Assembly: GCA_003221615.1 (NCBI GenBank)
Contig: QHSQ01000131.1
Coordinates: forward strand, 1-55,330
Direction: 5' to 3'
Source of the DNA: Candidatus Rokuibacteriota bacterium
Lineage (GTDB): Bacteria > Methylomirabilota > Methylomirabilia > Rokubacteriales > CSP1-6
DNA: 55,330 nt
Part shown: positions 41,168 to 43,426 of the stretch, piece after piece
Numbering within the stretch: position 1 is the first letter of the stretch
Layout: each line of letters opens with the position of its first letter
The notes under the pieces: generated by a model
Database searches by the model: none
Told to the model about the DNA's origin: nothing
What the model saw: the letters and a program-made list of their open reading frames with translations, nothing else
Made by a program: the position numbers and the translations under genes

Positions 41168-41387
41168 GGGCATCCGCCACTTTGTGCTTTGGATCACGAC
41201 CGACCCGGGTGTAGGATTGGGACGAAATCGACCGGGACGTCACAGCGTCCCAGCAGCGTCCCCGCCGACAATTTCGCCGGCGGCTTGACGTGGTCGAGCC
41301 CCGGGCCGGGAGTCGGCATCCGGTTCTGGGTGGGTGGGAACTGGGCCCGCGTGGCGGCCTTGCCGAGAATAGGAGGTGATCCAGCCG

Positions 41388-41429
41388 ATGTGTAACCCTA
41401 CGGTGATCTGTGAGGTGGTTGCCTCCTAG
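41388..41429 (+). CDS. 13-codon small ORF in the candidate RNA
   Basis: ATG 41388 to TAG 41427-41429 encodes MCNPTVICEVVAS. It follows an unusually long Shine-Dalgarno-type sequence; GGAGG is 11 bases from the ATG. Its last codons and stop can base-pair with that Shine-Dalgarno, so a ribosome on the ORF would change the fold. No downstream plus-strand gene follows for more than 3 kb, which argues against an ordinary leader peptide. Translation is inferred only. Confidence 0.4.
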   Translation: MCNPTVICEVVAS

Positions 41430-41480
41430 GCAGGGTCCACGCTAGCTCGGGTGGAACGCCTGGGAGTCCAGGCGCCACCG

Positions 41481-41571
41481 GCCCCGACGGTCCCGCCTTC
41501 ACCAGCGGGGCGGCGCGACGCGCGAGTGAATAGTGACAACGCGCCGCAGCCACCGTCGGGGCTTTGTTTTT
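41481..41571 (+). terminator. Branched intrinsic terminator of the candidate RNA
   Basis: Perfect 11-bp stem 41481-41491 with 41552-41562, enclosing smaller stems, followed by TTTGTTTTT (41563-41571). The direction is plus, opposite to csp. Confidence 0.65.
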
Positions 41572-41598
41572 GTCCGAGGGGGGCGACCCCCCTCGGAC
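41572..41598. repeat. 12-bp perfect hairpin between candidate RNA and csp
   Basis: GTCCGAGGGGGG/CCCCCCTCGGAC with CGA loop. It lies 48 bp after the csp stop on the minus strand; no T-tract in that direction, so it may slow but not classically terminate csp transcription. Confidence 0.65.
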
Positions 41599-41646: not shown

Positions 41647-41847
41647 CTAGGCTTTCCGGACGTTGGCGGCCTGGAGGCCCTTGGGGCCTCGGGTCACCTC
41701 GAACTCGACCCGGTCACCCTCGGTGAGGCTCTTGAAGCCCTGAGCCTGGATGGCGCTGAAGTGCACGAAAACGTCCTCGCCACCCTCCTGAGTGATGAAT
41801 CCGAAGCCCTTCGCGTCGTTGAACCACTTCACTGTTCCTTGAGCCAT
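41647..41847 (-). CDS. Cold-shock protein (CspA family)
   Basis: 66 residues, ATG with GAGGAAG upstream. Single-stranded nucleic-acid-binding OB-fold: [20 protein letters not shown] (RNP1 KGFGFI), DVFVHFSAI (RNP2) and KGLQAANV. Nearly identical to the second copy at 43226-43426, differing by about six residues; the two flank a DEAD-box helicase. Leader of about 160 bp. Confidence 0.97.
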
Positions 41848-42014
41848 GATCTTCCTCTTTCTGTGTCTAGAGCCTTACGCTCCGGTGATCCCGACCTCCA
41901 TGGCCGGGTAGTGCGCGCCGCAGACCGTCACGGGGCTGGGGCCCGCCGGCCGAGGCGCGCGGGTGAACTGCCGTAACGCGCTGCAGGCCGTCGCGGCGCG
42001 CCTTCCAGGTAAAG

Positions 42015-43136
<1,122 letters not shown>

Positions 43137-43225
43137 GAGAAGAGAAGCCTTTCTGAGTTGCCTCTGTGTGTTGGGCACCCGGGCCCGTCGCCGGGCCCGG
43201 GCGGGAGTGAACAGGGTGGGTTTTA

Positions 43226-43426
43226 CTAGACCTTCCTGACGTTGGCTGCCTGAAGACCCTTCGGACCGCGAGTCACTTCGAACTCGACCCGATCACCTTC
43301 CGCAAGACTCTTGAAACCCTGGGCTTGAATGGCGCTGTAATGGACGAATACGTCCTCGCCGCCCTCCTGCGTTATAAAACCATATCCCTTTGCATCGTTG
43401 AACCACTTTACCTGTCCTTGAGCCAT
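43226..43426 (-). CDS. Cold-shock protein (CspA family), second copy
   Basis: 66 residues, ATG with GAGAGG upstream. [28 protein letters not shown] and [11 protein letters not shown]. Upstream helicase and the other csp are on the same strand, so the order of transcription is this csp, helicase, other csp. Preceded by three small hairpins in the leader. Confidence 0.97.

Follow-up and report, generated by a model that had tools for sequence, protein, structure and literature searches.

The window analysed here is the whole stretch of 55 330 nucleotides of contig QHSQ01000131.1 from a Candidatus Rokuibacteriota bacterium. Its plus strand holds a conserved, structured RNA gene at 41333–41576, recognized by BLAST-type similarity and by its fold. 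The features of this element are collected in Table 1. A csp gene lies opposite the element at 41647–41847; it is the first downstream frame in the window and is convergent with the element. By reading of the ORFs, the minus strand (41647–43426) carries a DEAD-box helicase between two csp-like genes, in a cold-shock-like cluster. The next credible plus-strand frame, which we take to be MreB-like, begins near 44.8 kb. Two tRNAs were the only Rfam matches over the cut-off in the window.

Table 1. Features of the RNA element, in window coordinates.
Feature	Position	Strand	Basis
Whole RNA element, leader arm to terminator tail	41333–41572	+	DNA similarity (42/59 genomes with similar DNA); fold, z −4.99
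H1 closing arm, 5′ strand	41341–41368	+	Pairs with 41426–41452; exchanged-partner test, MFE fold
SD1, extended Shine–Dalgarno AGGAGGTGATCCAGCCG	41371–41387	+	17-nt exact complement of relatives' 16S 3′ end
H2 hairpin GATC-CA-GCCG / CGGT-GATC, start codon in loop	41378–41408	+	Exchanged-partner duplex test
Micro-ORF MCNPTVICEVVAS	41388–41429	+	ATG start; stop TAG at 41427–41429
GTGAGGTG, holding SD2 (GAGGTG, 41412–41417)	41410–41417	+	Unchanged in 40/40 distinct motif-independent copies
H3, 5′ strand (SD2 and last codons)	41414–41425	+	Covariation, 39 representatives
Local hairpin competing with H3 in the window's clade	41450–41479	+	MFE folds
H3, 3′ strand, pre-terminator element AGGCGCCACC	41470–41479	+	Covariation; here predicted to pair with 41450–41463 instead
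Branched intrinsic terminator, stem GGCCCCGACGGT/ACCGTCGGGGC and T-rich tail	41480–41572	+	Sequence, folds

The codons of the micro-ORF are ATG TGT AAC CCT ACG GTG ATC TGT GAG GTG GTT GCC TCC TAG. Further downstream the stem GGCCCCGACGGT/ACCGTCGGGGC is followed by TTTGTTTTT, and the branched hairpin with its T-rich tail ends near 41572. A simple terminator scan found nothing at the element because the terminator loop is branched. No sigma-70-type promoter match was found for the window element. An earlier note on this DNA had described much of this layout: an exact 17-nt complement of the 16S tail, a short ORF behind it, a TAGGAGG/CCTCCTA pairing, a closing stem with a tail, and no plus-strand gene for more than 3 kb. 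These points were recovered, the complement against ten 16S loci of relatives and the pairing in the predicted fold of 41333–41576. The unit had been started at 41371; in the alignment of relatives, conserved sequence extends upstream of SD1 to at least 41333. The earlier note does not mention that SD2 keeps a constant distance to the stop, that it has a partner before the terminator, that the element is related to an Rfam family, or that it occurs in several phyla.

A leader block (GTCGGC..CCGGTT..TGGGCCCGCG, 41270–41370) is kept in rokubacterial and deltaproteobacterial-type copies and is absent from Actinobacteria and Methylomirabilis-type copies. This block may be promoter or RNA. The Actinobacteria and Methylomirabilis-type copies carry a promoter-like TTGC..TA.GGT just before the SD.

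The first 16 nt of AGGAGGTGATCCAGCCG have one exact site in the window. With up to two mismatches allowed, two window sites were counted, against 0.02 expected from shuffles. The 16S gene of the window's own genome was not found in its assembly, so relatives were used: ten of their 16S loci end in TGCGGCTGGATCACCTCCTTTCTAAGGAG, to which the window motif is complementary over 17 nt without a mismatch. The length of 17 nt is not a constant of the family. The common core of SD1 is approximately GGAGGTGRTCC, and clades extend this core to different sides. The exact complement measures 18 nt in the five Methylomirabilis-type copies checked, 17 nt in the window and 15 nt in Streptomyces (L061); two copies of group f8 have only 8 nt of Watson–Crick complement to the 16S tail. 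When G·U pairs were admitted, the contiguous complement in 110 distinct SD1 regions ran to 13–23 nt (median 17), 11 nt of it being fixed by the search pattern itself. The common 16S end was used for this count; two extra bases are present in only 4 of the 10 loci, and the median is 17 either way. The extra AGCCG of the window SD1 also pairs inside H2, so pairing to the 16S may not be the only reason for its 17 nt. An extension of the complement into helix 45 was considered and rejected, as neither the RNA nor the relatives' 16S conserves this similarity.

Similar DNA was found in 42 of the 59 genomes searched, own genome included, with one copy per matching genome. GGAGGTG and GTGAGGTGG are invariant in the 30 best relatives' copies. 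A species-wide scan of genome_contigs (84,980 species) with the pattern AGGAGGTGATCCN{15,45}KGTGAGGTGR returned at least 116 stretches, and among the matches listed 111 of 116 were judged by eye to be the same element. The taxa among these listed matches are Rokubacteria/Methylomirabilota, Streptomyces, Kitasatospora, Streptacidiphilus, Catenulispora, Brachybacterium, Myxococcales, Lujinxingiaceae, "Deltaproteobacteria"/Binatia, Acidobacteria and five Pelagibacterium. A single match on a viral contig (L243) was without the element's features and was taken as chance.

Phyla were then sampled with the pattern GGAGGTGRTCCN{12,42}GTGAGGTG, centre genomes being included in the counts. Matches were obtained in 81 of 95 genomes of the window's own phylum (one each, no reversed-pattern control hits) and in 50 of its 53 good genomes; the match in G069 looks like chance. 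The other counts were 26/296 for Actinobacteria (two likely chance, three control hits), 19/188 for Myxococcota (two likely chance, one control hit), 9/199 for Acidobacteriota (three likely chance, one control hit) and 1/240 for Alphaproteobacteria, this one being the centre genome itself. Because the pattern is exact, these counts are lower bounds, the likely chance matches apart. As only one of the 240 sampled Alphaproteobacteria matched, transfer or strong divergence is suggested for the Pelagibacterium element. The Pelagibacterium copies (L073, L103, L135, L155, L164) have longer frames, with the stop 11–13 codons beyond GAG, and a clear pre-terminator element is missing from them. In Pelagibacterium limicola (L073:2695–3100) an FMN riboswitch follows the element on the same strand, some 200 nt downstream. 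One record titled Klebsiella pneumoniae MAG (L133) holds an element near-identical to that of a deltaproteobacterial genome (L072) and is probably mis-binned or mislabelled.

The most regular property of the micro-ORF is the position of its stop. In the 40 distinct copies that were found without use of the motif, the stop is always the fifth codon after the GAG of an in-frame GAGGTG: 32/32 distinct BLAST-found copies (42 loci) and 8/8 distinct copies found with RF02471 (14 loci). TAG, TAA and TGA interchange at the stop across copies. Over the larger collection, the pattern matched 226 of 230 loci; L069 has a longer spacer, and L057–L059 are without the element. Twelve of the 226 loci, in which the stop lies more than 14 codons on (L067, L117, L123, L125, L137, L199, L201, L211, L221–L224), were dropped, after which 124 of 131 distinct copies had the stop at the fifth codon. 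An in-frame start lies 7–12 nt after GGAGG in 99/99 distinct cores, and the other two frames have scattered stops. Five of the 116 genome-scan stretches (L067, L117, L123, L125, L137), likely chance matches, had been omitted from these cores beforehand; each lies in a long frame that has no early stop, and the count of 99 is for this reason not blind to the stop. The evidence on stop distance is therefore taken from the BLAST and RF02471 sets and not from the pattern-found cores. In four actinobacterial copies (L188, L189, L190, L197) no ATG, GTG or TTG is present; by eye a CTG takes its place, from which the frame could start.

The frame has 12–27 codons (median 13). Its peptide varies at both ends and only Glu-Val is constant. 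The GAG GTG codons are unchanged in all 40 distinct motif-independent copies, and the codon before them is TGT in 86, GGT in 21, CGT in 20 and AGT in 4 of the 131 distinct copies. GAGGUG is Shine–Dalgarno-like, and in nearly all copies 6 nt separate this second site (SD2, within GUGAGGUG) from the last sense codon downstream. Judged from these comparisons, a short frame is under selection on a small transcript, which stands alone as judged by its terminator sequence and is reported as expressed for actinobacterial relatives, and the motif GUGAGGUG is under constraint as RNA within a translated frame, not as peptide.

The fold of 41333–41576 has a predicted energy of −133.8 kcal/mol (z −4.99), and 0 of 200 shuffles were as good. 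In the MFE fold of the window copy, SD1 is paired to the end of the ORF. Comparison of the copies revealed a further helix, H3, in which GGUGNNNNN (SD2 and the following codons) pairs with the pre-terminator element, by eye about AAUCCCA-n-CAGYCACC. Covariation of H3 was scored on 39 of 42 representatives, L073, L155 and L215 being omitted for want of a clear anchor. Anchors were set visually from the pre-terminator motif, in part once the duplex test had been seen, and hence only positions 5–9 were scored. Native partners gave 150 pairs at 195 variable positions; exchanged partners gave 108.6 (sd 5.3, maximum 129), none of 20,000 permutations was as good, and slid registers gave 37–110. The permutations keep shared ancestry, and the representatives are related within clades. 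Pair 7 is G-C in 15 representatives, U-A in 11, U-G in 5, C-G in 4 and A-U in 2. Examples of the strands are GGUGGCUGC/GCAGUCACC in Streptomyces (L061) and GGUGGCUCG/CGAGCUGCC in Brachybacterium (L065). An unrestricted duplex test agreed with H3, more weakly (combined p 9e-4 and 7e-3). An AAUCCCA bulge just before the H3 3′ strand (41447–41479 and equivalents) is strongly conserved in many phyla.

The window copy pairs at three of the five variable H3 positions ungapped and at all five with one bulge. Its predicted P(H3) is 0.00, as the local hairpin wins, so H3 rests on the comparison across clades, and masking of SD1 is the likelier closed state in this copy. Of the 39 representatives, 19 reach a predicted P(H3) of 0.5 or more, among them 8 of the 12 actinobacterial ones. 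For H2, the native duplex sum over 42 representatives was −275.7, whereas exchanged partners gave −230.4 (sd 12.3) and were as good once in 20,000; the pairing is weak in some representatives. Native H1 pairs beat exchanged partners (fraction 0.027, 19 representatives), and H1 is limited to rokubacterial and deltaproteobacterial-type copies. Rokubacteria-type copies add H1 and the local hairpin that competes with H3.

By alignment, the window element is a distant relative of RF02471 (Ms_IGR-5), an actinobacterial sRNA. Ms_IGR-5 was reportedly first described in 2010. The window copy scored 23.2 bits against RF02471 (E 0.002 in a 401-base search), below the gathering cut-off of 45 bits, and aligned over its full length, from SD1 through GUGAGGUGG to the terminator. 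In a search of the whole own genome with stricter filters the window element was not listed; the best hit of that genome, elsewhere (C520, L057; E 0.088), is without the element's motifs and was discarded. Of the 59 genomes searched in the window's class, 14 had a full-length RF02471 match over the cut-off (50–72 bits), all of them in two other families of the class (12 in f5 and two in f9). Another 16 genomes had a full-length match below the cut-off at the place found by BLAST, eight of them with E < 0.001. In an Rfam scan of 18 loci, the four actinobacterial ones were named RF02471 at the element, over the cut-off, and the other 14 were unnamed there. The actinobacterial members also have SD1, GUGAGGUG, the stop spacing and H3; the window's clade differs by its closing arm and competing hairpin. 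RF02471 is described as an actinobacterial sRNA, and no description of a reading frame was found. It was confirmed by RNA-seq in S. lividans, according to passages of PMC8079986, and matches an sRNA unit of S. avermitilis in those of PMC8780764. Ribosomal reads on Ms_IGR-5 homologs of M. abscessus and M. smegmatis are reported in part of PMC4974804, which also cautions that footprints are common on many ncRNAs. The excerpts of PMC8388888 and PMC3765725 contain nothing on Ms_IGR-5. The literature covered, which lies beyond the original description and the Rfam member list, gave no stated function for RF02471/Ms_IGR-5 and no report of it outside Actinobacteria.

We regard the window segment as the rokubacterial copy of an RF02471-related sRNA gene with a 13-codon frame, likely a switch opened by ribosomes, and put this reading at an even chance. 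A 30S subunit would bind SD1 tightly and translate the micro-ORF. With the stop codon in the A site, SD2 would stand at an initiation-like spacing, so that the 16S tail could dock and the ribosome linger; the lingering is proposed from the SD2–stop spacing, which is like that of initiation. The lingering ribosome would keep H3 open and, in rokubacterial copies, would free SD1, which the end of the ORF otherwise masks. With no ribosome bound, the RNA would close. The open form may hold ribosomes or may expose the pre-terminator element to a partner. SD1, the open frame, the SD2–stop spacing, the covarying H3 and the single copy per matching genome are shown by the sequences; H1, H2 and the ribosomal reads on mycobacterial homologs also speak for such a switch. 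For translation gating as the element's way of working our confidence is evenly divided. The earlier note had proposed a ribosome-facing structured RNA with a possible link to cold shock. The first part agrees with the element's own terminator, its open micro-ORF and its predicted self-sequestration. The link to cold shock was given up: csp adjoins the element only in the window's clade, and no cluster of neighbouring ORFs spans more than two of seven taxon groups.

Several other explanations were weighed against the ribosome-opened switch. A ribosome sink or 16S-tail antisense RNA, in which SD1 would occupy the 30S subunit without any switching and the frame would be a by-product, is suggested by the median complement of 17 nt with G·U pairs and by the exact 18 nt of the Methylomirabilis-type copies. 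It needs neither a fixed stop distance nor a covarying H3, and appears unlikely. If instead the peptide of 12–27 residues were the product, with RNA structure only tuning its translation, the conserved open frame and stop would be accounted for. Both ends of the peptide vary, Glu-Val is preceded by Cys, Gly, Arg or Ser, and GAG GTG shows no synonymous change in the 40 motif-independent copies, all of which makes a micropeptide gene decidedly unlikely. Of the micropeptide with autocontrol put forward in the earlier note, the predicted self-sequestration is retained; the peptide function is not, and the conservation looked for in the peptide was found at neither end. The 17-nt match, taken by itself, would also fit a decayed antisense fragment of 16S rRNA. 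This possibility, which the earlier note had named together with a lack of conservation as what would overturn its view, can be practically dismissed: the element is a conserved gene with open frames, covarying helices and a terminator in several phyla, and no rRNA family matched at the element in the Rfam scans.

Control in cis was considered from the genomic neighbourhood. A leader or attenuator, in which read-through into the next gene would depend on micro-ORF translation, would explain the leader-peptide-like ORF, the alternative pairings and the terminator adjoining H3. By rough ORF calls on 24 representatives, the first downstream frame was codirectional in 11, convergent in 11, as csp is in the window, and absent in two. 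Among 436 clusters of neighbouring ORFs, from the same rough calls and with taxon groups assigned from record titles, 25 join two of the seven groups and none joins more; the largest two-group cluster (Pelagibacterium and Rokubacteria) has scattered positions. No conserved codirectional downstream gene emerged from these calls, and the alternative pairing spares the terminator stem. Attenuation in cis was rejected as a general mode, and as an explanation of the element it is improbable; given the 11 representatives with a codirectional frame, cis effects may occur at some loci. An RNA that binds RNA polymerase, like 6S or Ms1 (described in parts of PMC9130861 and PMC4191392), would be of similar size and would have actinobacterial relatives. 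A separate 6S RNA over the cut-off was found in 56 of the 59 genomes, own included (G000:C457:7379–7561, 85.9 bits), and the Rfam scans gave no 6S (RF00013) match at the element. IGR-5 and Ms1 are given as different RNAs in a passage of PMC10454040, on which the identity of RF02471 with Ms1 was rejected, and a term search within PMC11077062 gave no match for IGR-5 or Ms_IGR. This explanation is very improbable.

The element was also compared with known systems. It resembles Ms1 and 6S RNA in being a single small RNA gene of similar size, and differs from them as a separate locus and RNA. Dual-function or coding sRNAs such as SR1 and Pos19 are likewise small transcripts with a short frame; here the peptide is not conserved, whereas in-frame RNA motifs are. 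In leader-peptide attenuators, translation of a short frame is coupled to alternative pairings. The element shares the short frame and the alternative pairings, but has no conserved downstream gene and keeps the terminator stem outside the alternative. At the RF2 (prfB) frameshift site, an internal Shine–Dalgarno acts on the ribosome near a stop. The element also has a Shine–Dalgarno inside its frame near the stop; its spacing resembles that of initiation and not the short frameshift spacing, and no shifty site was noted. The extended Shine–Dalgarno of Staphylococcus aureus (PMC13009471) likewise concerns initiation through long SD pairing, but is a genome-wide feature and not one conserved RNA gene.

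More broadly, and tentatively enough that we consider it doubtful for now, the family could be a multi-phylum class of RNAs that measure or park ribosomes: SD1 would capture the 30S subunit, a throw-away frame would be translated, and the SD2 stop clamp would flip the terminator-adjacent helix, signalling translation capacity. An sRNA family filed under Actinobacteria would prove to be a ribosome-facing RNA with a conserved frame in several phyla. Its fixed SD2–stop distance makes the family a natural test case for whether docking of the 16S tail holds ribosomes at termination. The ribosome-profiling signal on the 'noncoding' Ms_IGR-5 RNA may be true translation.
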